Positions 1,332-23,438 of a stretch of DNA of 23,704 bases are shown here, in pieces. The notes beneath the pieces are model-generated. The model saw only the letters and a list, made by a program, of their open reading frames with translations, searched no databases and was not told where the DNA came from. Location: the IMG/VR virus record IMGVR_UViG_3300044681_000016, positions 1 through 23,704 of that record. One strand, written 5' to 3'. This stretch comes from a virus. The first letter of the stretch is position 1; every line of letters starts with the position of its first letter. The translations under genes and the position numbers were made by a program.

Positions 1332-2015
1332 TTATTCCTTAGTTACAAATTCCGATGCCATTGGGAATATCTTAGCAATAACTTCTGCGCATACTATTGC
1401 GATATCCATGTGTTCTTTTTGAGTTCCGTTCGCACTTCTTAGTTCAATATAATGAATCCATGATCTTAAAGTACCATTCATATACATACGAGACATAGTT
1501 AACCCTTCAGGTAAAACTGCTCTCGCTTGTTCTTTGGCAATACCTTTAGAGATTGCCCATTCATACGCATTGCGTGCTTCATTGATAACACGTTGCTGCA
1601 TCTGTTCCCATCCATACGCAATCTGTCTTTGAGCATCGTCGTTCATGTCCAGCTCAACAGAGTTTTGTCTGTTCTTGGTATCCTGAAGACGTGCATCACG
1701 AACAGTAAAGGCTAGATCCTTAGTTGGGTCAGCATAACGCTGAGAAAATTCTTGGTATGAAAAAGAACGATGACGTAGAATCTGGCGAGCGATGTCACGA
1801 GTTGTTTCAATCTCGAGGCAAGCACTTACCATTTCTAGTGGTGACCAGTGTTTGTGTTTAATCAGATAACGAATTAGTTTCTCTGATGTTTCTGTGTTTA
1901 ATTGATTGGCAGGATTCGATACCCTTGCGCAATACGCAATCAGATCCTGAACATTATTAATATCATCTGCCATCTCATCAGATGGTGTTGAGTAACTGAT
2001 TAACTTAACCTTCAT
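1332..2015 (-). CDS. thyX: Flavin-dependent thymidylate synthase ThyX
   Basis: Converts dUMP to dTMP using methylene-tetrahydrofolate, FAD and NADPH. The ThyX signature RHRxxSxxxxSxR is intact as RHRSFSYQEFSQR (residues 81-93 from the chosen start), and the 227-residue length is normal for the family. I chose the ATG at 2015 because GGAG lies 6 bases before it. The ATG at 2027 adds four residues but has no ribosome-binding site. It sits between primase and nrdA with short gaps, so the three are probably co-transcribed. Because the phage makes ordinary dTMP here, any thymine modification by the upstream cassette would most simply occur after synthesis of the DNA. There is no sign that this enzyme is a hydroxymethylase, but specificity cannot be read from sequence alone. 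Confidence 0.96.
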   Translation of the reverse strand: MKVKLISYSTPSDEMADDINNVQDLIAYCARVSNPANQLNTETSEKLIRYLIKHKHWSPLEMVSACLEIETTRDIARQILRHRSFSYQEFSQRYADPTKDLAFTVRDARLQDTKNRQNSVELDMNDDAQRQIAYGWEQMQQRVINEARNAYEWAISKGIAKEQARAVLPEGLTMSRMYMNGTLRSWIHYIELRSANGTQKEHMDIAIVCAEVIAKIFPMASEFVTKE

Positions 2016-2036
2016 TAACTTCTCCATACATATTGT

Positions 2037-3056
2037 TTAACACTTTTTCCAAGAAGCAAACTGCATTTCAGCAGCCAACCCTTGGTAGGAATTTTTATTT
2101 ATTACGCTTACGATTTCTTCTACGGACATTCCGTTCATTACCATATCGTTAATGTCTTTGAATTTTATTTCTTCTGGGAACATACAGACTGTATATCCAG
2201 ATTCAATATACTTACCTAACTGCTTTACGATTTCTTTATTTCTTGGTTCATTGTCCATGACAAGAACACAATTTGATTTGATTTTCTGAATGTCTAGAAG
2301 ATCAAAAGAAGCACCACCAACAGCAAGACAATTGGGAAGGAAAAGAGAATCAACTTGCCCTTCAACAACAAATACTTTCTGTCCCCAGTCGATCCTGTCC
2401 AAACCATAAATTTTCTCCTTGTCCTCATCAATCTTGATGGTAATATACTTAGGCTCTTCGTTTCCGAAGGCTCTTGCGCTGTATGCAAAGACTTTTCCTT
2501 GCGCTGTAAAGAAAGGGAATACCAAACGTGGAGCATCGTTTTCCTCATTAGTGAATTTGAACTTGACTGAGTTACTCCACTTCTTAAACTTCTTCGCAAA
2601 ATAAATTAGATCCCACTTATCCTTTGGGATCTTTCTAGACATTACATACTGAACTGCTGGGTGAGTAATACTTAGTTGATCTATTCTTTCTAGACCATCT
2701 AGGATATCGTCACGCAAAACTTCAGGCTCTTGCGTTTGGGGGAGTGTGACAGAAATGTCTTTGTGTGCGTTGTATCTAGTTGCGCCACTCTTGTAGCGTT
2801 CTATTACATACTCATCATAAAGAATTGGGTCAACAGTCTTGATAAAATTACCAAGATTTGTTCCGTAACCGCAATTGTGACACTTAACAAATAAATCGGA
2901 CTTTTTCCGATATATGAACCCTCTTGCTTTCAACTTGTTTGTTGCACTGTCACCGCAGACAGGACAAGAAAAGTTCCAAATATAATCTTTTTTCTGCTTG
3001 AAGTTCCTCAGCTTAGGAGAAAGCATCGAAGCATACTTGACATCAATAAAAAGCAT
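2037..3056 (-). CDS. 61: DNA primase, T4 gp61-like
   Basis: Primase that makes RNA primers for lagging-strand synthesis and works with the gp41-type helicase encoded at 20680-22086. The protein is 339 residues, close to the 342 of T4 gp61. An N-terminal zinc ribbon is visible: CPVC at about residues 31-34 and CHNC about 25 residues later. A Toprim core follows, with the glutamate in VVEGQVDSL and the metal-binding VMDNEP. The start is supported by GGAGG 7 bases upstream. Transcription probably starts at the paired sigma-70-like promoters at 3086-3119 just upstream, separating it from the lysis genes. The C-terminus is lysine/cysteine-ended with no special motif. Confidence 0.93.
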   Translation of the reverse strand: MLFIDVKYASMLSPKLRNFKQKKDYIWNFSCPVCGDSATNKLKARGFIYRKKSDLFVKCHNCGYGTNLGNFIKTVDPILYDEYVIERYKSGATRYNAHKDISVTLPQTQEPEVLRDDILDGLERIDQLSITHPAVQYVMSRKIPKDKWDLIYFAKKFKKWSNSVKFKFTNEENDAPRLVFPFFTAQGKVFAYSARAFGNEEPKYITIKIDEDKEKIYGLDRIDWGQKVFVVEGQVDSLFLPNCLAVGGASFDLLDIQKIKSNCVLVMDNEPRNKEIVKQLGKYIESGYTVCMFPEEIKFKDINDMVMNGMSVEEIVSVINKNSYQGLAAEMQFASWKKC

Positions 3057-15044: not shown

Positions 15045-15743
15045 CTATTTAGGGTACTTGTTATATCTCTTCTCCCACCTGAGGATCTCTTTGAATAGCT
15101 TCTCGATAACCTGTTTGTTACCACTGAAGTCGTGTCCAAACGTCTTGTAAATCTCTGTTAGGGTTGGTGAGTTTGATCTGTTTCTCTTTGAAGAACTCAA
15201 GAGATAATCGACTGGCTGATGTGGGCACAGCATTTTGTAGTCGAGGTAGATGCAGTGAGCGTATGCCTGAATCTCATCGAAGTGAGAGTAGTATTTACGA
15301 TCTTCGTCCATACGTTTGACGCCTGTCTGCTTATGGGGTAGGTAGTAGTCAGTGCCCTCATCGTACCTACGATCGTACTGCATAAAGTGAATAAGTTCAT
15401 GCATGAGGGTTTGAATGAACTTAAATTTGAAACGCTGCCAAGAGGTATCTGTGAAGCTGAAGGTATTGAACCTTTTGGTGTAGACGAATACCGTGGATTG
15501 ACGATCCCAGTATTCACCACCAACAGCAATCGCTTCATCCCAGATTTTGGCTTTGGATTTTTGCTTGATAAACTTTACAGAAGTTCTCCACTTCTTGCAA
15601 TAGTTTTGTAACCCCTTGGAGTCATTTTTATAACTATCTAGATCCGACCAGATTTTGGAAGGAATGAACTTGGCTCTGAATGGTCTGTCACCAAACGGAA
15701 GAAGGTCTATGAAATCGATGTTGCAAGATTCTAGATAAGTCAT
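15045..15743 (-). CDS. HExxH zinc metalloprotease-like protein
   Basis: A 232-residue protein with a zincin motif, HELIH (His115, Glu116, His119), inside a hydrophobic helix FIQTLMHELIHFMQY. A downstream HFDEIQAYAH segment probably supplies the third metal ligand, as in minimal SprT-like and related 'NEiqA' zincins. No signal peptide is seen, so it should act in the cytoplasm or in the particle. The substrate is unknown; a maturation or host-protein-degrading role is possible. The ATG at 15743 follows AAGG by only one base and lies directly at the predicted start site of the promoter at 15750-15778, so translation may be leaderless. The gene ends in TAG within a CTAAATA box. Confidence 0.82.
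   Translation of the reverse strand: MTYLESCNIDFIDLLPFGDRPFRAKFIPSKIWSDLDSYKNDSKGLQNYCKKWRTSVKFIKQKSKAKIWDEAIAVGGEYWDRQSTVFVYTKRFNTFSFTDTSWQRFKFKFIQTLMHELIHFMQYDRRYDEGTDYYLPHKQTGVKRMDEDRKYYSHFDEIQAYAHCIYLDYKMLCPHQPVDYLLSSSKRNRSNSPTLTEIYKTFGHDFSGNKQVIEKLFKEILRWEKRYNKYPK
15046..15052 (-). promoter_or_regulatory. Late-promoter-like box CTAAATA overlapping the metalloprotease stop codon
   Basis: CTAAATA on the minus strand includes part of the TAG stop of the metalloprotease gene and lies 31 bases before the next ATG (15015). It could drive late expression of the unknown 350-residue protein. Because the last codons impose the sequence, chance is not excluded. Confidence 0.4.
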
Positions 15744-15749
15744 ACCTTA

Positions 15750-15778
15750 ATTCTACCATACTCGCTCCAGAAAGTCAA
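15750..15778 (-). promoter_or_regulatory. Sigma-70-like promoter for the metalloprotease gene, inside the end of the kinase gene
   Basis: TTGACT (15778-15773) and TAGAAT (15755-15750) are 17 bases apart. The -35 box and spacer encode the last residues of the P-loop kinase (LDFLERVW) and the -10 begins with its TAG stop. The downstream sequence AATTAAGGTATGA is identical to that after the promoter at 13905-13933. Confidence 0.8.
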
Positions 15779-16289
15779 GTACGGCAGATTGCTCCTCTAA
15801 GTTAGTGTTTGCAAACTCAGTGATATATGGCATCAAGGCAAAATTCGATAGTAAGTTATTATATTTAGTCGCCCTACCTTTTAGGAATTGCTCAGACTGG
15901 TCAGACCCCCTATCCTTATATCGTTGCTCTAGCAGATCCTTGGGCACGGTTAGGAATACAACATGAAGTTCCGTATTGGGCAAATCCATTGCAAATTCTA
16001 AGAAAGACTGGTTGAAGATCCTGTCCCCCTCGAACAAGATATTGGAGGTTGTTTCTGAAACAAACTCTTGGGCGATAGGCTGGACTGCCATACTCAATCT
16101 GTCAGTTCCAGCAAAGGTTTCACCCTCTTCGTATTTACCCAAAACATAAAGGTCTAGTTCCTTGCAATAAAGGGCAGGGAGCATCTTCTTGGGTTCAACC
16201 TTCTCCCATGTTTTGTTCTCCATAAACTTACGGAACAAAGTAGTCTTACCAGTTCCTGGGCTACCACCAACGGCTACTAACTTTCTCAT
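15753..16289 (-). CDS. P-loop kinase, candidate 5-hydroxymethyl-pyrimidine DNA kinase
   Basis: A 178-residue P-loop kinase. The Walker A is GSPGTGKT (9-16), and an acidic FEGDRIF motif (Glu87, Asp89, Arg90) occupies the Walker B/substrate position. It is small, cytoplasmic and has no extra domains. Alone it could be any nucleoside or small-molecule kinase. Its stop-start overlap (ATGA at 16286-16289) with a gene of the alpha-glutamyl/putrescinyl-thymine pyrophosphorylase group makes a 5-hydroxymethyluracil DNA kinase the best reading. In phages such as SP10 and ViI, that kinase phosphorylates 5-hmU in DNA before amino-acid transfer. GAGGAG lies 8 bases before the ATG inside the upstream gene. 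Confidence 0.8.
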   Translation of the reverse strand: MRKLVAVGGSPGTGKTTLFRKFMENKTWEKVEPKKMLPALYCKELDLYVLGKYEEGETFAGTDRLSMAVQPIAQEFVSETTSNILFEGDRIFNQSFLEFAMDLPNTELHVVFLTVPKDLLEQRYKDRGSDQSEQFLKGRATKYNNLLSNFALMPYITEFANTNLEEQSAVLDFLERVW

Positions 16290-17311
16290 ACCAAAAACTC
16301 CTCTAAATTGAAAGCAACAACTTGCTCTTCGTCATCAAACATCCAGTGAAGTCTGGACATATTTCCAGTGTTAACAAACTCAGAGAATTTCTCTTTGTTT
16401 ATCTTGTTCTTACCAGTCAACCTGCTATCTAAGGTTTCATTTCTGGCTTGCCATAAAACATCCCAATCAATACCATACCATCCGTCTTGTTCAACTTGAA
16501 GTATTTCCTCAGACTGTCTATCAAGGTAGTAGCCAAGATATCGTCCGTGGTGTTCTCTAAAAATCTTTTTGAAGGAACACAAACAAGTTTCCATAGTGAA
16601 GAAGTCAATTTGGTTTGCCAGTTCAGGAAACCTTTCTAGCATCTCAACCCTAATTCCTTCGCCAGCGTGCTCAAGGTATTCGTACTCTTTTCCAGAGAGT
16701 TTTCTATCATAATCGTCATCTTTGCCAAGGGCAAGAAGTAGTCCATTACGATGAGACTTGGAACCAGAATAATCGTCCAGCATGAGAGAACTAGGCTCCA
16801 CATTAACACCAGCAGTGTGCTTAAGGTGCTGTAAGTAAAACCAAGTAGAATAACGCCCAAACTTATGAAGGTTTCCTTTAAGTGCCACCCACAGTGCATC
16901 AAAGTTTTTCTTCGCATCGCCTTCGTAGTATAACTCGAGTCGTTCACGTTGTGTTCCAGTTCCAATAAATTTTTGATATGATTCAAACATGGCAGGTAAG
17001 TGACCCTTGTTCCACTTCGTGTCAGTTTGATAGCGTAGACGTTTGTAGTTAGAAGTATTCCATACAGTCATACGGTCTACTGTCGCCAACTCAAAGTCAG
17101 GAAACTCATTCAACAAAACCCAAGCAGTTGGACCATGATATGTGTTACCATATAACCATGCGAACCAGAGACGTTGCTCATCGTTATGTTCGTAACGCTT
17201 GTTCAAATAGTTCGTCATCCATACTGCTGGGTCACAGTCATTGTGCTTCAATGACCATGCATACCAACGAATGAACGCTTCTCTACGGTTTTGTTTTAAT
17301 CTGTAGTCCAT
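16286..17311 (-). CDS. Alpha-glutamyl/putrescinyl-thymine pyrophosphorylase-like protein (amino acid:DNA transferase group)
   Basis: A 341-residue helical protein with an aromatic N-terminal half (REAFIRWYAWSLKHND, LWFAWLYGNTYHGPTAWVLLNEFPDF, TDTKWNKGHLPAMFESYQKF). I recognise this pattern as the phage alpha-glutamyl/putrescinyl-thymine pyrophosphorylase group (probably clade 3). These enzymes replace the (pyro)phosphate on phosphorylated 5-hmU in DNA with an amino compound. The identification is from memory of the family, not from a search. It partners the kinase downstream (ATGA overlap), the usual arrangement for such pairs. It overlaps the phosphatase gene upstream by 16 bases. The C-terminus LEEFLV resembles the LESFF tails discussed for the dioxygenase and polymerase, but these codons also contain the ribosome-binding site of the kinase. 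Confidence 0.75.
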   Translation of the reverse strand: MDYRLKQNRREAFIRWYAWSLKHNDCDPAVWMTNYLNKRYEHNDEQRLWFAWLYGNTYHGPTAWVLLNEFPDFELATVDRMTVWNTSNYKRLRYQTDTKWNKGHLPAMFESYQKFIGTGTQRERLELYYEGDAKKNFDALWVALKGNLHKFGRYSTWFYLQHLKHTAGVNVEPSSLMLDDYSGSKSHRNGLLLALGKDDDYDRKLSGKEYEYLEHAGEGIRVEMLERFPELANQIDFFTMETCLCSFKKIFREHHGRYLGYYLDRQSEEILQVEQDGWYGIDWDVLWQARNETLDSRLTGKNKINKEKFSEFVNTGNMSRLHWMFDDEEQVVAFNLEEFLV

Positions 17312-17718
17312 TTAGCCAGCGCAGTCTTAATCAATTTAATAACTTCATGATGCATCTCTGTTCCTGAAGCAAACGCAGGATCTGGGATCTTGTTTACTCC
17401 TTGAACATAGTCAGACAACTTCTGCGCTTTTGATTGCTCACCGAACTGGTCAACAAATCGTTTTGCATTTGCGTCATCCATATAAAAGACTTTGTCAGCC
17501 CAGTCAACCAGTTCCTTGGTAGCAACTGATGAACGAATTCCTTCTGAGGGATAACCTTCTTTCTCTAAGGTCTCTCTCATTTTCTTTGCAGTGATTCTAC
17601 CATTCGATGTCTTCAATCCTGCTGACTTAACTTCAAGATTTGGGTAATCTTGCTTGCAGATGATTTCGGCAGCTGCACTGCGGTTCACATTACCATGACA
17701 CAGGAACAAGACTTTCAT
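17296..17718 (-). CDS. Low-molecular-weight protein-tyrosine-phosphatase-like protein
   Basis: A 140-residue LMW-PTP/arsenate-reductase fold protein. The P-loop is CHGNVNRS (Cys7-x5-Arg13), right after the first strand VLFL, and the general-acid loop is PDPAF with Asp113. All catalytic residues are present and the length is normal. These enzymes hydrolyse phosphate monoesters through a cysteinyl phosphate. Inside this operon it could remove phosphate from a modified base or intermediate, or act on host proteins. The start shares one base with the stop of the amidoligase (TAATG), and the end overlaps the next gene by 16 bases. Arsenate reduction is less likely in this context. Confidence 0.85.
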   Translation of the reverse strand: MKVLFLCHGNVNRSAAAEIICKQDYPNLEVKSAGLKTSNGRITAKKMRETLEKEGYPSEGIRSSVATKELVDWADKVFYMDDANAKRFVDQFGEQSKAQKLSDYVQGVNKIPDPAFASGTEMHHEVIKLIKTALAKWTTD

Positions 17719-18686
17719 TAGTAACCTTTCTGTTTAAGTTCTTGAATGATTGGGTATACGTCTTTAGATGATACGTTCTCGATGTCATCAATGTTAATAC
17801 GTTCACGTAGAGCATCAAGTCTTTTAATTATATCACCTTTCGTGTTTGTATCAAAGTTTGTAAACTGATATCCTTGTTCTGTTTCAAACTCGTATGGCTC
17901 AAACTTTGGAAACGAGAAGTTATCAGAGTTGAAGATCTCCAATGGGCTATCTTCGTCACCCAATGCTGCCTCTAAGAATTTCTTGCACCACTTGATACTA
18001 GATTCCATCTCACCAAGATGCAAAGTTCCAGGGAAGTGTCTGAACTCAATAGTGTTTGTTTCTTCCCACATCTGACGCAAGTTAATGCCAGCACGTGGGC
18101 ATTGGAACCAAGAAGGATTACCTTTGGCATCACGGTGAGCATGTTCCTCAAAGAATTCTTGAGTAGTAGTTGCTGCTAACATTGCTTCAATACGCTTTGC
18201 TGGGAGTTTGTGTTGATGAGATTTGTAACGTCTCTTCATTCGTTTAACTGCCCACTCATACTCAAGTGCTGGTAGGTTTCTATCTGGCACTGGGATCTGT
18301 TCAACGATCTCAAATGCTTGCTCTTGAAAACGAGTAATGTATTTTAGAAGTTTCTTACAAGACTCCAAATCGTCTTTCAATCCAGGAACACGAATGTGGA
18401 TGTGAAGGTTACTGCGATAGTTGACGATTCTCTTCGGAGAAAGAAGTGCGCCATTAATCTTAGAGATGTGATCAATCTGCTCAATGATAGTATTGGTTGG
18501 TCGTGTATTGATCTCACCACCGTAAGCGTAGAGTTTACCACTTGGGTCATTAGCAATACCTGTGCTGCTAACGCAAGTGTTGTCTTTATCATTCCATTGA
18601 GCGCCATCTGGTAGTTCAGCGAACCTGTGGCAGTTACCATATTCTAATTCTACGCCATACGACCAAGAATCACTATCATACTTCAT
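17718..18686 (-). CDS. Amidoligase-family protein (COOH-NH2 ligase, glutamine-synthetase-like fold)
   Basis: A 322-residue protein matching the Amidoligase_2 pattern: YGVELEYG at the N-terminus (Glu13, Glu15), YGGEINTRP (Glu59), NLHIHIRVPG (His95, His97), and NTIEFRHFPGTL (Glu214, Arg216). These conserved Glu/His/Arg residues bind ATP and metals in the family. Members join a carboxylate to an amine using ATP. The upstream gene encodes a class II glutamine amidotransferase, which could release ammonia for it; such pairings are known for phage and bacterial amidoligases. The start lies 11 bases inside that gene, with AAAGGA 8 bases before the ATG. The substrate is not readable; an amino-acid adduct on DNA is my inference. 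Confidence 0.85.
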   Translation of the reverse strand: MKYDSDSWSYGVELEYGNCHRFAELPDGAQWNDKDNTCVSSTGIANDPSGKLYAYGGEINTRPTNTIIEQIDHISKINGALLSPKRIVNYRSNLHIHIRVPGLKDDLESCKKLLKYITRFQEQAFEIVEQIPVPDRNLPALEYEWAVKRMKRRYKSHQHKLPAKRIEAMLAATTTQEFFEEHAHRDAKGNPSWFQCPRAGINLRQMWEETNTIEFRHFPGTLHLGEMESSIKWCKKFLEAALGDEDSPLEIFNSDNFSFPKFEPYEFETEQGYQFTNFDTNTKGDIIKRLDALRERINIDDIENVSSKDVYPIIQELKQKGY

Positions 18687-19368
18687 ATTGATAATCCTTT
18701 GCTTTATTGTTTACGGTTTCATAATCTAATGTTAAATGCGTACCTATCGTTATGGTGCAATATGTATTCGCATCCATAACTTCAGGTTCAGCGGAAGGGT
18801 CTGCTCTCTTAATAATGTCCTTAGTTGATGTCACCAATACCCCATTAGGGAGAGTCGTCATATACAGAGGTCGTTTACCACTACGATATACTGTCAGCTT
18901 TTTGTCGATACTCAACTCACATACACCCATTGACATATTAGGAAATTCATCCAACGGATCTTCTGAATGCAGAACAAGTTCACTATCATTTTTAGTAATG
19001 CAGTCATACCCATAAAGTTCTTTCCAGCGATGCGGAAGTTCTTGGGTTATAACTCCATTGTGAACAATACTCTTTTCAGAATTGTAAAGTGGTTGGTTAT
19101 ATTCCAAGTCAGATGTTGAGTAGCGACAGTGACCAATTAGGTAGAGGTTTCCATCTTTAGCAACGCAATCCTCTAAGTTGTCAAGATGAACAAACTTGTC
19201 TGCTGGCACTGGTTCTTTGAATGTTTGTATTTCTTTAGACCAGTGCGGTAGAACAGACATACCTGTTGCGTGCATCCCTCGAATCTTAGACTCAAGGAAC
19301 ACACGTCTTATTAAACTGAAGTCATCAGCAGAGGGTTTCCTGATTATAGCACCAATAACAGCACACAT
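18676..19368 (-). CDS. Class II glutamine amidotransferase (N-terminal-nucleophile hydrolase)
   Basis: A 230-residue stand-alone GATase-II domain. The start Met is followed directly by Cys2, the N-terminal nucleophile, which fixes the start codon. Other family residues are GHCRYST (Arg82 region), the oxyanion HNG (103-105), NQP, and DSE in TKNDSELVLH. It hydrolyses glutamine to glutamate and ammonia. No synthase domain is fused, so the ammonia must be used by a partner, most likely the amidoligase overlapping its end by 11 bases. The TAA of the dioxygenase lies 2 bases before its ATG, and no clear ribosome-binding site is present, so translation is probably coupled. Confidence 0.9.
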   Translation of the reverse strand: MCAVIGAIIRKPSADDFSLIRRVFLESKIRGMHATGMSVLPHWSKEIQTFKEPVPADKFVHLDNLEDCVAKDGNLYLIGHCRYSTSDLEYNQPLYNSEKSIVHNGVITQELPHRWKELYGYDCITKNDSELVLHSEDPLDEFPNMSMGVCELSIDKKLTVYRSGKRPLYMTTLPNGVLVTSTKDIIKRADPSAEPEVMDANTYCTITIGTHLTLDYETVNNKAKDYQYEV

Positions 19369-19370
19369 AA

Positions 19371-20669
19371 TTAACCGAAGAAACTTTCTAGAGTTGATAC
19401 GTTTGACTCTGGGTGATACTTGTGGAGGGTTTCCTCTCCAAGTTTGCGTTCCAGATAATCATACCACTCTTGAGACAACCACATACCCTCAGAAACGCCA
19501 TTCCAAAGAGGACGCCATTCTGGATGCTCTTTATTCATTCTACGCTCATCAACAAAGTCTTTGCGTGACATCTCGTATTCCCAGCTACCCAACTCAAGCA
19601 TCTTCTCACGGAAGTAGCAGACGAAAGAAATACGCTCAGCACCTTCTTCAGCAATCATCTCTGTGTTGCCGTGGATACCTTCATGGTTGTTAACAAGCAA
19701 CAGATCACCTGGACGAATGTTAACTGCAACACGATACTCAGGGAATACAAGATAACCACCAGTATACTTACCGTTGTTTGACACCACAGTTAGGTTACTG
19801 AACCCTACATTCAAATCACCAGCATCTCTGTGTGCTGCAGTTCTGAATGTCTTGTTAACTGTCACAGTAGTGAATACAGTTCCAGGGACAATGAACTTCG
19901 GATCAAGTTTCTTACATGCTTTGTTTTGTTCTTCCCAACGCATAGGGAGAAGTTCTTTGAATCCTTCAGACAAACTCTGCAGGAATGGGAATCCCATTTC
20001 AAATTTCTCATAGTTGTTGGCTGTGAATGAAGTTGGGCGACCGTATGGGATACGAGGATAACGATCAAAGTAACCAGCAATACCAGAGAACACAGAGTTA
20101 GCATAAGTCGTTTGACATACTAATTCTTTAAGAACACGCTTGGTCTCTTTCTTGGCGTCATCGCCTGACATCTGTCGTACTTCCTCAACCCAGTCGTCAA
20201 ACTGGAATCCTTCGTCTTTGGTTCTATTGATAGACCAAACTTGACCACGTGAGGAAGGTAGGCTGGATCTGTTTTCGCCATACTTGTCCATGATAGTCTT
20301 GATTGGGTCTTCACCAAACAAGTTCTCCGCAGGATTCAAAAACTGATCCATGATCTCGAATTGATACTCAGTAACCCATTCACGATTACCTAGAGTACCT
20401 GCTTTTGGACCAGCAGCAGTTCCACGATTCTGAGTCTCAACTGCTGCTTCACGCAGACCAGTGTAAGCAAGTCTTTGTTGCTCCTCAGTAAACCAGTTCT
20501 TGCGAAACTTGAAGATGATATTCTTTTCGCTATTCTCTTCACCGAGTGCTGGTGGAGCATAGAAGTCCATATCTTCTTCAACCAGCAGGTCGTAATGTTG
20601 TTCGTCTACAAACTGACCAAGCAAATGCTCAGAGTCATGCTTCATGTCAGCGGTGATTACCTTAACCAT
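19371..20669 (-). CDS. TET/JBP-like 2-oxoglutarate Fe(II) dioxygenase, predicted DNA 5-methylpyrimidine oxidase
   Basis: A 432-residue protein whose core (about 262-355) fits the TET/JBP family: TVNKTFRTAAHRDAGD with His280 and Asp282, GFSNLTVVSN, YTGGYLVFPEYRVAVNIRPGD, LVNNHEGIHGNTEM with His329/His333 (one is the distal iron ligand), and ERISFVCYFRE with Arg346 for 2-oxoglutarate. The family oxidises the 5-methyl group of thymine (JBP) or 5-methylcytosine (TET) in DNA. The N-terminal ~250 residues are unassigned. The C-terminus ends LESFFG, matching the DNA polymerase tail LESFFV in this window. I chose the ATG at 20669 because AAGGAG is 6 bases upstream; an ATG at 20708 would overlap the helicase. 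It heads the modification operon. Confidence 0.88.
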   Translation of the reverse strand: MVKVITADMKHDSEHLLGQFVDEQHYDLLVEEDMDFYAPPALGEENSEKNIIFKFRKNWFTEEQQRLAYTGLREAAVETQNRGTAAGPKAGTLGNREWVTEYQFEIMDQFLNPAENLFGEDPIKTIMDKYGENRSSLPSSRGQVWSINRTKDEGFQFDDWVEEVRQMSGDDAKKETKRVLKELVCQTTYANSVFSGIAGYFDRYPRIPYGRPTSFTANNYEKFEMGFPFLQSLSEGFKELLPMRWEEQNKACKKLDPKFIVPGTVFTTVTVNKTFRTAAHRDAGDLNVGFSNLTVVSNNGKYTGGYLVFPEYRVAVNIRPGDLLLVNNHEGIHGNTEMIAEEGAERISFVCYFREKMLELGSWEYEMSRKDFVDERRMNKEHPEWRPLWNGVSEGMWLSQEWYDYLERKLGEETLHKYHPESNVSTLESFFG

Positions 20670-20679
20670 TTCTTTCTCC

Positions 20680-22086
20680 TTAAAACTTGAACCCTTCAAA
20701 GTTCTCATCCATTACTCTAATTTTTCTTCCCATTAAAGACTTATCGAACATTGGGACATCGTCATCTCTACTTGAACTTCCTGCATCTGCAATTCCTTGT
20801 TGGGCTGACACTTCTACATTATACAACTTCATCTTGCTTCTGTCAACCCCTATAATAAATCTTTTGTAATAACTTGGATCATTATATCGGTTCTTCAACT
20901 GCTTCACCATAATCTGATTAAGCTGTTCAAGTTCTTCAGTTGAGATCAAAGCAAGCATCAAGTCAACTGTTGCAGGCAAACCAAACGATTCAGAAGTATC
21001 TTCAAGACCTGGATCGGAGTTTGTGAAACCAGATCGAGTCGTTTGCGTCGCACTCAAAATTGGAACACTATACTCAACTGCCAAACCACGAATCTCCTCA
21101 GCAATGCTCTTCACATATGTATAAGAGTTTACATTGGCACCTTGCTTCATACGTTGACTTGCGCAGATATTCAGATAGTCAATGATGACCATCTCAGGTA
21201 AGAAGTCTTTCTTCATCTTCAGTTCCTCAAGCAGAGCACGGAAGTGTCCTGCGTGAGCAGATGCAGTTGGATACTCTTTGATGATTAACTTACCTTGAGT
21301 CTTAGTCGCCAGCTTTGCTACCTTGTTTTCAAAGATGTCTTTGTCAATAGCCTTCAATTCATCCATGGTCAGATTCAAGAGGTTCGCATCAATACGTTCA
21401 GCGATTCTTTCTTCTGCCATTTCCATAGTTATGTATAATACATTTTTACCCTGCATTAGAGTTGAGGCAGCAACGTGACACATGAACAATGACTTACCAA
21501 CACCAGTACCTGCCAAGACTACGTTCAAAGTTTTCTTGGACAAACCACCTTTAGTGATACTGTTCAACATGTCAAGATCGAAAGGCACTTTCTCTTCAAC
21601 ACGATGATAGAAGTCATATCGTGAATCCGCATCATCAATGTAATCGTGACCAATGTTATTGTCGAAAGAAACAGCCAACGCATCAGAAAGGATTGATGGT
21701 ATTGCATCTTTAGTTTGCGTACCACTACGGTTATCAATGATCTTGATTGACTGCATGATAGCAAGATAGACTGCTCGCTCTTTGAAGAATTCTTCTGTTC
21801 TTCCGATCAACCAGTCAACATTAGTCTCACTGGGAGAAAGGCTAGAGATAATCTCTTGCGCATTCTTCTGTTCCTGTTCGTTGACATCTGTTCTGTTAAA
21901 TACCTCAATAGCCAACGCTTCTTTGGTTGCTGGCTTATTGAACTTCGTGAAGAAACTTACAAGTTCTTGAACAATTATGTTTTCAGCCTTATCCGAAAAA
22001 TACTCAGCCTTCACAAAGGGCAAAACCTTACGGCAATACTCCTCATTGTGAACTAGAGATCCGATAATACTGTTTTCAATTCGCAT
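20680..22086 (-). CDS. 41: Replicative DNA helicase, T4 gp41-like (DnaB family)
   Basis: A 468-residue DnaB-type helicase, close to the 475 of T4 gp41. The N-terminal domain (1-170) is followed by a RecA-like motor with Walker A AGTGVGKS (192-199), a following strand ITMEMAEER (the E of motif H1a), Walker B MVIIDYLNI and the SATQTTRSG motif with the sensor glutamine. It unwinds DNA ahead of the fork and recruits the gp61 primase. The start shares one base with the stop of the small gene upstream (TAATG). The gene order uvsX - small gene - gp41 mirrors T4. Confidence 0.95.
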   Translation of the reverse strand: MRIENSIIGSLVHNEEYCRKVLPFVKAEYFSDKAENIIVQELVSFFTKFNKPATKEALAIEVFNRTDVNEQEQKNAQEIISSLSPSETNVDWLIGRTEEFFKERAVYLAIMQSIKIIDNRSGTQTKDAIPSILSDALAVSFDNNIGHDYIDDADSRYDFYHRVEEKVPFDLDMLNSITKGGLSKKTLNVVLAGTGVGKSLFMCHVAASTLMQGKNVLYITMEMAEERIAERIDANLLNLTMDELKAIDKDIFENKVAKLATKTQGKLIIKEYPTASAHAGHFRALLEELKMKKDFLPEMVIIDYLNICASQRMKQGANVNSYTYVKSIAEEIRGLAVEYSVPILSATQTTRSGFTNSDPGLEDTSESFGLPATVDLMLALISTEELEQLNQIMVKQLKNRYNDPSYYKRFIIGVDRSKMKLYNVEVSAQQGIADAGSSSRDDDVPMFDKSLMGRKIRVMDENFEGFKF

Positions 22087-22373
22087 TAAGTTCCACCTTT
22101 ATAGACAAGTTCTTGTTTCTCTAAACCCCTCTGTATCATATCAACGAGGATGTCGCCGATAGTATTCTCGAGGTCTTTAATATTGTTTTCTGGAGTTGGT
22201 GTTTCTAAGTCATAATCAAATTGCAAGATTGGTTTGTCCTCATCTGGGAATCGAACAGAACCAATCGTGAACACTGCGCCAGCCCAAGCACCATCTATGA
22301 TAATAATCTTATAGTGGTCTTTGGAGTCAGGTTCCTCATCGAACCTGATTTGATAGTTAGGTGGTTTCCTCAT
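22086..22373 (-). CDS. Small unknown protein between uvsX and gp41 (95 residues)
   Basis: Unrecognised. From the chosen start it is [22 protein letters not shown]..., with a beta segment ([23 protein letters not shown]) and an acidic C-terminal helix ([23 protein letters not shown]). The ATG at 22373 is preceded by AGGAAG at 6 bases and overlaps the uvsX stop by 17 bases; the longer reading from 22445 would overlap uvsX by 89 bases and is unlikely. Its position matches T4 gene 40, but I make no claim of homology. Co-expression with helicase and recombinase suggests a replication accessory. Confidence 0.75.
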
Positions 22374-23415
22374 CGAGTTCTTCCTCATCTGTTGGTACAA
22401 CTTCATCTGATCCGAATTTATATTTCGTTGCGCAGTATGCGTCAATCTGACTCAAAATCTCTTTAGTGAAATACTGAGTAGGATTTTCGTTGATGTTCTT
22501 ACCAAATACTTTACGACCATCGGTTAGTTCAATACGACCACCTTGTGACTTCCAAACACCTGCTTCAATAGCAAGATCACTCAACCCATAGTATTTGTCA
22601 AGACCTTTACTGAACGACAGTTTGGTTTCAACCATAGATTGCTCTTTAGTGAAACGTGACTTCTCAAGTTTACACTTGATAATGTTACCGATGACTTCAG
22701 TGCCGTCTTTGTCTTTTGACTTCGACAAGAACACGATAGTTGATGCAGCATACTTCAGACCATCACCACCACCCATCGTCTTTGTTGGGACATAAGCACC
22801 AACGACAGCATACGTATGGTTAGTAACAATCATAGCAATGTCAAGTTTAGCCAGCTTCAGTGACAGAACACGGAAAGCACCACGAACCAACTGAGCACGT
22901 GTCATGTCTCGAGTTTCTTTACCTTCGCTTACGTCTTCCATTTCTTTAGTAGTTGAAAGCATACCCAACGAGTCAAGGCACATCAGAAGTGGTGGGCGAT
23001 CTCCCTTTGGTGCTTTCTCATAAGCATCAAGAATCTTAGTAGCCTGAGTTCTGAACTCTTGAACAGTCGATACAGGAACAATGACGAAACGGCGAGTGTC
23101 AATACCTCGCTCAGTTAACATATCTTTAGTCAACGCACCTTCAGTTTCAAAGTAAACAATTCCTGCTTTCGGATCTGAGTTAAGAAAATTCTTACAGATA
23201 CCCAATGCATAAAATGTTTTACCAGTTGAGGACTCACCTGCCAAAGCAGTCACCTTGTTACTAGGTAAGCCACCATAGATTGAGCCACTAAGCAATGCGT
23301 TAAACGCATAAGAACCAGTGTCAATAAAGCCAGCTGTGTCGCCAACAATTCCTTCGTCGGCTAGACCAGCGTATTCATTGTCAAGTTCTTTTACAATGTC
23401 TTTTAGAAAGTTCAT
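22357..23415 (-). CDS. uvsX: UvsX RecA-like recombinase
   Basis: A 352-residue RecA/UvsX protein (T4 UvsX is 391). Features: [20 protein letters not shown] upstream of the Walker A GESSTGKT (60-67), the catalytic-type [18 protein letters not shown] (Walker B), and IVTNHTYAV with the following glycine-rich [11 protein letters not shown] loop. The C-terminus is very acidic ([11 protein letters not shown]). It forms filaments on single-stranded DNA for strand exchange and recombination-dependent replication. The ATG at 23415 has GGAG 6 bases upstream; the ATG at 23436 adds seven residues without a good site. A consensus promoter (23439-23467) precedes it. Confidence 0.96.
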
Positions 23416-23438
23416 ATTAATCTCCATTAGTTTCAATA

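Follow-up and report, generated by a model that had tools for sequence, protein, structure and literature searches.

A T4-like phage operon for the probable hypermodification of thymine by a TET-initiated route

Described phage systems and the six-gene operon

Thymidine hypermodification has been described in the phages M6 and ViI and in Pseudomonas phage PaMx11, where it proceeds through a 5-phosphomethyl-dU intermediate, with phosphorylation by a kinase and transfer of an amine (PMC6449724), as we propose for the operon reported here. M6 and ViI differ from it in the origin of their 5-hydroxymethyluracil (hmU), which is supplied before replication by a ThyA-type dUMP hydroxymethylase (PMC6449724), as well as in having kinases of other families and no TET dioxygenase. 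PaMx11 gp46 (PUGT; PDB 8z2m, 8z2n) shares its fold with the amino acid:DNA transferase (ADDT) of the operon. A five-gene thymidine hypermodification system with genes for a TET-like protein, a transferase-family protein and a 5-hmU kinase has been published for Rhodococcus phage Tonitrus (PMC11955845); it differs by an annotated aGPT-Pplase2 gene, and neither a glutamine amidotransferase (GATase) nor an amidoligase is named (PMC11955845). In mycobacteriophage Zemanar (cluster B), gp1 to gp4 encode ParB, a TET-like protein (whose match falls under the Pfam cut-off), an ADDT and a PF18751 kinase. The TET-ADDT-kinase core thus stands in a row as in our operon, but GATase, amidoligase and low-molecular-weight phosphatase (LMWP) are absent from these four genes. 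The cultured T4-like Caulobacter phage Cr30 carries a TET (47% identity), an ADDT and a relative of the kinase (39% identity) inside about 9 kb, but it has a TAGT-like gene and a ThyA-family gene, and the stretch read gave no match to GATase, amidoligase or LMWP. OM43 phage Melnitz-1 shares the TET and a kinase of the same family, its genes encoding in order a C5-methyltransferase, a TET, a 427 aa protein and a PF18751-like kinase; it differs in that the methyltransferase points to cytosine and no ADDT match was found among the genes scanned. Phage DLP6, listed as restriction-resistant in a review table (PMC8228603), possesses a TET relative 49% identical to that of the operon. Neither an ADDT nor a PF18751 protein was found in DLP6, whose resistance is therefore evidence for no more than a TET-type system. 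The TET-ADDT-kinase core is not new, being already present in cultured phages (Cr30, Zemanar, Kozie), and our operon is therefore a variant of an existing arrangement, most likely a widespread variant of a known phage way to hide DNA from bacterial enzymes. If true, it would help to account for the escape of abundant environmental phages from restriction enzymes.

The operon occupies positions 15753–20669, on the minus strand, of the window, i.e. the whole 23,704 nt stretch of DNA that was analysed. An ORF check of the window recovered all six ORFs announced by the sequence-only reading, together with their tight joins (gaps of at most 2 nt, ATGA, TAATG and overlaps of 11–16 bases). A TET/JBP 2-oxoglutarate-Fe(II) dioxygenase (19371–20669; Pfam Tet_JBP, 7.1e-23) is separated by 2 nt from a stand-alone class II glutamine amidotransferase (glutaminase) domain, the GATase (18676–19368; GATase_6, 2.3e-8), which overlaps by 11 nt (18676–18686) a carboxylate-amine ligase (17718–18686; Amidoligase_2, 6.5e-8). 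The latter shares 1 nt (17718, TAATG) with the LMWP (17296–17718; LMWPc, 6.9e-19), whose gene overlaps that of the ADDT (16286–17311; PF18724, 8.4e-21) by 16 nt (17296–17311), and a 4 nt ATGA overlap (16286–16289) joins the ADDT to a P-loop kinase (15753–16289; PF18751, Ploopntkinase3, 1.5e-9). All six Pfam matches lie above the curated cut-offs, and the labels TET/JBP, GATase-II, amidoligase and LMW phosphatase first given to four of these genes are confirmed. The longest TET ORF reaches 20708 via an upstream ATG, but we prefer the start at 20669, as first placed, because a Shine-Dalgarno-like AAGGAG precedes it and the consensus of its relatives begins at this Met.

A neighbourhood search found the gene set again in many contigs with its order unchanged, as the sequence-only reading had suggested checking, and codon position 3 changes about 3 to 6 times as often as position 2 in every gene of the six; the operon is thus not a product of chance, and all six genes are under purifying selection. 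The gene at 15045–15743 was rejected as a member of the cassette, since it is found as well at places that lack ADDT and kinase. A host scan of genome contigs returned only three MAG contigs and no clear host.

Predicted activities and proposed pathway

The Tet_JBP domain of the dioxygenase contains the HxD...H iron ligands and the 2OG-binding Arg; H293, D295, H346 and R359 (numbering from the 20708 start) are conserved in 85 sequences, and the predicted reaction is the oxidation of DNA thymine to hmU. A TET accompanies the kinase in all of the 24 kinase-anchored loci that have sufficient flank, only 5 of which have dnaB in the stretch, and in one locus (L324) TET and kinase are fused in a single ORF. 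A PDB sequence search with TET, ADDT and GATase gave no significant match.

The protein at 16286–17311 had been taken for an alpha-glutamyl/putrescinyl-thymine pyrophosphorylase, a family that we take to be today's PF18723 (HMUDK_hel). This was the wrong family, the protein being an ADDT that matches PF18724 with 75.2 bits vs 26.2 for the cut-off. Its predicted structure (pLDDT 90.5) matches PaMx11 gp46, a 5-PmdU glycinyltransferase (8z2n), with a VIA Z of 17.3, vs 10.9 for the next unrelated entry. Comparison of its alignment profile with the M6 ADDT, a single sequence, fell short of significance (0.031), and the link between the two rests on Pfam and fold. The protein is predicted to swap the phosphate of 5-phosphomethyl-U in DNA for an amine.

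The kinase, too, lies outside the families first invoked, as neither of the named 5-hmdU kinase families, PF18748 and PF18747, was listed in Pfam at E up to 1. Its P-loop kinase assignment nevertheless stood, and its profile aligns with the M6 kinase of the PF18748 family (hhalign, 2.6e-8), in a match that extends beyond the P-loop, and with the ViI kinase (1.2e-4). By these profiles the PF18751 protein is related to the named hmU kinase families but does not belong to them, and is predicted to be a 5-hydroxymethyl-pyrimidine DNA kinase. The name terminase small subunit (phrog_800) was rejected for this gene, which matches P-loop kinases and is found together with the TET.

In the GATase, C2 directly after Met1 (the N-terminal nucleophile), R30, the oxyanion-hole N104-G105 and D128 are conserved in 99 sequences, as in class II glutamine amidotransferases, and the protein is predicted to be the ammonia source. 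The amidoligase model (pLDDT 91.8) retrieved glutamine synthetase with Foldseek (1.5e-4) and gave VIA Z values of 10.8 to 1tt4 and 10.2 to YbdK (1r8g); together with the family match and conserved acidic residues, the modelled fold is that of a YbdK/gamma-GCS/glutamine synthetase carboxylate-amine ligase, from which an amidated or peptide-like adduct is plausible. The LMWP displays the CX5R(S/T) and DP loop of its family (C7-R13, S14 and D113-P114), conserved in 44 sequences. Its best PDB match is YwlE, but a role as arginine phosphatase was not adopted, given a Val at the position of a Thr that we take YwlE to require.

We consider it probable that these enzymes form a TET-initiated thymine hypermodification pathway of a T4-like phage, leading from hmU to phosphomethyl-U, an amine and an amide. 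The TET would turn the methyl of T already in DNA into hmU, and the PF18751 kinase would phosphorylate the hydroxyl to give 5-phosphomethyluracil in DNA. The ADDT would then displace the phosphate by an amine, the nucleophile being most likely ammonia from glutamine, supplied by the GATase, or alternatively a free amino acid. The amidoligase, with ATP, would form an amide bond on this amine (or on the carboxylate of the amino acid), yielding an aminoacyl- or peptide-like base, and the LMWP probably dephosphorylates an intermediate or phosphomethyl sites left unused. The parts of the pathway were examined computationally (families, fold matches, conserved residues, gene linkage); we infer from them the substrates, step order, final base, ammonia route and LMWP role. 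The earlier proposal of a TET-started, post-replicative base hypermodification is supported by the families, the conserved catalytic residues, the PaMx11 gp46 fold, the TET-kinase linkage, the TET-kinase fusion and the lack of ThyA-type hydroxymethylase and C5-methyltransferase in the cassette records.

Probable origin of the hydroxymethyl group

No ThyA-type hydroxymethylase (PF00303) was found in the 16 cassette records, which include records of 161–171 kb although many are fragments, the window itself being a 23.7 kb record. By comparison, the five known hmU phages have PF00303 in 5/5 cases, an ADDT in 4/5 and a TET in 0/5. A second record set agrees, with 12 TET records all devoid of PF00303 and two PF00303 records both devoid of TET. 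The PF00303 enzymes of these two TET-less records share with M6 and ViI one Asn, which presumably marks dUMP, not dCMP, as substrate, and in one related cassette a gene resembling that of dUMP hydroxymethylase is present and a TET is lacking. Of the 16 cassette records, 12 encode a ThyX, and the window does so too, which makes 13; that of the window, a ThyX-type thymidylate synthase outside the operon (1332–2027, minus strand; phrog_85, 9e-74; ThyX-like RHRSFSYQEFSQRY), suggests that the phage makes dTMP and therefore that T can enter DNA first.

C5-cytosine methyltransferase (PF00145), expected of a phage whose TET acts on 5-methylcytosine, was found in 0/20 TET records and 0/16 cassette records, the window being a 23.7 kb record, whereas the controls gave 10/14. 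That the TET acts on 5-methylcytosine, with the resulting 5-hydroxymethylcytosine then decorated, is accordingly quite improbable in our view: 5mC is reportedly the substrate of the best-studied phage TETs, and in Melnitz-1 a C5-methyltransferase gene adjoins the TET-family gene with the PF18751-like kinase two genes further, but the 16 cassette records, those of 161–171 kb included, have neither this methyltransferase nor a ThyA-type hydroxymethylase, and the related TET-less cassette carries a hydroxymethylase of dUMP type. Because both enzymes are missing there, ThyX is common and the known hmU phages are ThyA-type without TET, T is favoured over C as the target, in line with the thymine start in DNA proposed at the outset. 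Kinases and GATases are common in nucleotide and tRNA metabolism, which might suggest RNA or the nucleotide pool rather than virion DNA as the target; we give this very little credence, as both the Tet_JBP and the ADDT family act on DNA and the 16 records yielded no ThyA-type hydroxymethylase that would supply a pool. If thymine is indeed the start, the phage would obtain a hypermodified thymine from ordinary T in finished DNA, needing no modified-nucleotide pool and with a swappable final step.

A modular slot and the possible route of amination

Across relatives the locus is modular, with a TET-ADDT-kinase core and a slot occupied by a GNAT, by amidoligase and GNAT, or by amidoligase and LMWP, and in some cases a glycosyltransferase. 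LMWP and GNAT never occur together in 195 loci, the LMWP taking the place of the GNAT in amidoligase cassettes. GATase and an acylating enzyme are both present in 109 loci and both absent in 10, with no mixed case, the loci being counted without regard to kinship; in an unscored exception, L319, GATase and ADDT are accompanied by an FAD oxidoreductase, and neither GNAT nor amidoligase is present.

One reading, which we advance tentatively, is that the GATase passes glutamine ammonia to the ADDT, so that 5-phosphomethyl-U is aminated directly, and that the base, still in DNA, is next aminoacylated by the carboxylate-amine ligase with the use of ATP. The slot would in that case provide an exchangeable cap (acetyl, aminoacyl or sugar) on a common aminomethyl-U. 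We know of no DNA base that is the product of a glutaminase-fed transferase or of an amide ligase working on DNA. It is also possible, if somewhat doubtful, that, as in PaMx11, the ADDT attaches a free amino acid to 5-phosphomethyl-U, GATase and amidoligase then amidating or extending its carboxylate. The solved member of the ADDT family, gp46, uses glycine and not ammonia, and activation of a carboxylate fits the amidoligase fold; however, the 70 loci with GATase and a GNAT but no amidoligase in the slot would have no carboxylate activator.

GATase, amidoligase and LMWP might instead not act on DNA at all but build a small molecule, a peptide tag or a modification of the surface, leaving only TET, kinase and ADDT to modify DNA. 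GATase relatives also occur in Pseudomonas phages, at three loci (L348, L356, L359) the stretch examined contains amidoligase and LMWP but yielded neither TET nor ADDT, and phage amidoligase/GATase pairs have been tied to cell-wall change (PMC10580990). We nevertheless regard a separate product as unlikely, given the single operon with tight overlaps, the alternation with GNAT in one slot and the recurrence of the three genes with ADDT and kinase in rearranged order (L338, L341, L352). If the hypermodification pathway is correct, a GATase-amidoligase branch would be identified whose product is readable by mass spectrometry, with an enzyme toolkit for putting amines and amides on DNA.

Cassette composition and linkage

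The complete IMG/VR virus record of 23,704 bases contains T4-like replication genes, encoding a primase (2037-3056), a DnaB-type helicase (20680-22086) and a RecA/UvsX-like protein (22357-23436), and the cassette at 15753-20669. The six minus-strand genes and their overlaps were found in the sequence as the sequence-only reading had described them, in the reading order TET, GATase, amidoligase, LMWP, ADDT (amino acid:DNA transferase) and kinase, and all six proteins score above the curated Pfam cut-offs. The label "pyrophosphorylase-like" given in that reading is better replaced by ADDT, the name of the Pfam family (PF18724), and the kinase belongs to PF18751. Alignments of each gene (44 to 113 sequences) retain the expected catalytic residues of TET (H293/D295/H346/R359), GATase (C2/N104/G105/D128) and LMWP (C7-R13/D113), together with the P-loop of the kinase and the amidoligase's acidic and basic residues, and third positions hold most codon changes in all six genes. 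Directly after the kinase gene, a protein with an HExxH motif (HELIH) is encoded at 15045-15743; it was left out of the cassette because loci that lack ADDT and kinase keep it in the same position.

Scans of IMG/VR returned at least hundreds of relatives for ADDT, TET and GATase. Among the 24 kinase-anchored loci counted, those with at least 6 kb of upstream sequence, TET is present in all and an ADDT HMM match in 19, and Pfam recognized a divergent ADDT in three loci without such a match (L317, L319 and L321). Only 5 of the 24 have dnaB within the stretch, and some cassettes adjoin terminase-like genes in siphovirus-like contigs. In addition, a 723-residue ORF (L324:6405-8576) is a natural fusion of TET (residues 49-383) and PF18751 kinase (533-674). 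The constant pairing of TET with kinase, the infrequent dnaB and this fused ORF therefore indicate that the cassette travels as a unit among differing genome neighbourhoods.

Another fusion (L312:5869-8007) joins ADDT to an N-terminal domain like a 349 aa protein that L310 encodes separately and that may be PLP-dependent. A different TET-linked module occupies the same dnaB-adjacent site in L142-L146, L149, L150, L163, L174 and L191, with a 334-335 aa protein (MSLHEFLGEER...) downstream of TET, followed by a ~149 aa protein whose start resembles HAD phosphatases (SYDxDGVLA); no ADDT or GATase was detected in these modules.

Variable slot and proposed order of chemistry

A variable slot separates GATase from ADDT; it holds a GNAT acetyltransferase alone in 28 loci among the matches listed, and elsewhere amidoligase with LMWP or with GNAT; extra genes encode a GT4-like glycosyltransferase, a TET-associated glycosyltransferase (PF20691) or a 2OG oxygenase. 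Loci with ADDT and GATase, among the matches listed, divide into amidoligase and GNAT (77), GNAT (70), amidoligase and LMWP (45) and others (3), the same contig possibly entering twice through overlapping windows, and none of them combines LMWP with GNAT. The three others fit L311, L316 and L320, each with a short protein in the slot, which matches GNAT domains in Pfam in the latter two. When loci with distinct ADDT sequences and with TET, ADDT and kinase matches were counted, GATase and an acylating enzyme (GNAT or amidoligase) were both present in 109, both absent from 10 and mixed in none among the matches listed, an association given no probability test because the loci are related. L319, with GATase, ADDT and an FAD oxidoreductase, is an exception outside this HMM count. 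In L012, L014, L017, L019, L064 and L072, the slot contains an insert of 413-451 aa, which may be a mobile or homing element within the cassette; that of L019 weakly matches ParB_N.

The ADDT model is all-helical (pLDDT 90.5), and its top solved match is the 5-phosphomethyl-2'-deoxyuridine glycinyltransferase gp46 of Pseudomonas phage PaMx11 (PDB 8z2m/8z2n; VIA Z 17.3, 255 residues at 3.6 A), the best unrelated entry following at VIA Z 10.9. Foldseek gave E 0.027 and probability 1.00 for gp46, and predicted viral proteins named ADDT match more strongly (e.g. mycobacteriophage Fortunato, E 4.6e-14). Given these fold matches, this ADDT branch most likely has a phosphomethyl base within DNA as its substrate. 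The model of the amidoligase (pLDDT 91.8) is similar to YbdK, glutamine synthetase and glutamate-cysteine ligase, which activate a carboxylate and couple an amine to it.

Since GNAT and amidoligase alike form amides on amines, and ADDT is the sole evident acceptor of GATase ammonia in GNAT-only cassettes, we favour an order in which an amine would first be made on the base and then acylated. The order of the substrates, ammonia as the source of the amine, the amino acid coupled by the amidoligase and the role of LMWP are points that we infer.

Thymine or cytosine

PF00303, to which dUMP and dCMP hydroxymethylases belong, was found in none of 16 cassette records, which include records of 160.9, 170.6 and 170.8 kb, most related contigs being fragments. 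ThyX is present in 12 of the 16 and in the window itself (13 in all), and no C5-MTase was found in the 20 TET records searched. The identical PF00303 search was positive in all five known or likely hmU (5-hydroxymethyluracil) phages (ViI, M6, phiW-14, SPO1 and Cygsa01), none of which has TET. In a second record set, all 12 records with TET are without PF00303 and both records with PF00303 are without TET; one of the latter, that of L349, contains GATase, ADDT, amidoligase and LMWP. Both PF00303 proteins have the Asn found in the enzymes of M6 and ViI, a residue that we take to mark dUMP over dCMP enzymes. A dUMP-type enzyme where TET would otherwise stand indicates hmU as a putative intermediate common to the two kinds of cassette. 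L348 and L366, from one record, carry amidoligase and LMWP; that record lacks TET and encodes a dUMP hydroxymethylase of the M6 type, and an adjoining ORF is HMUDK_hel-like as judged by eye.

A cytosine version probably exists elsewhere: consecutive genes of Melnitz-1 (L331:2758-6835), encoding a C5-MTase, a TET-family protein, a 427 aa protein and a PF18751-like kinase, are probably a cytosine-based counterpart.

Known systems

Complex base pathways built on TET were reportedly predicted by Iyer in 2013, and Lee in 2022 is said to have described amino acids installed on hmU and tailored afterwards, with acetyltransferases among the tailoring enzymes. Among cultured phages, mycobacteriophage Zemanar and Microbacterium phage Kozie have TET-ADDT-kinase as in the cassette core, Kozie with an additional FAD enzyme. 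Together with these precedents, the published hypermodification system of Tonitrus, with TET, transferase-family and kinase genes (PMC11955845), therefore places the core among those already known in kind. The six-gene set was found in no cultured phage record; amidoligase matches occur in two such records, GATase matches in 36, of which all but one are from Pseudomonas phages, and TET matches in nine others. The closest cultured TET (49%) is that of DLP6, whose DNA is reported to be restriction-resistant (PMC8228603) and which, unlike the cassette, has neither ADDT nor this kinase. Public records KU682439, KF301602, MG450654 and phrog_800 contain likely misannotations, namely the names "SNF2 DNA repair protein" for TET relatives and "terminase small subunit" or "adenylate kinase" for kinase relatives.
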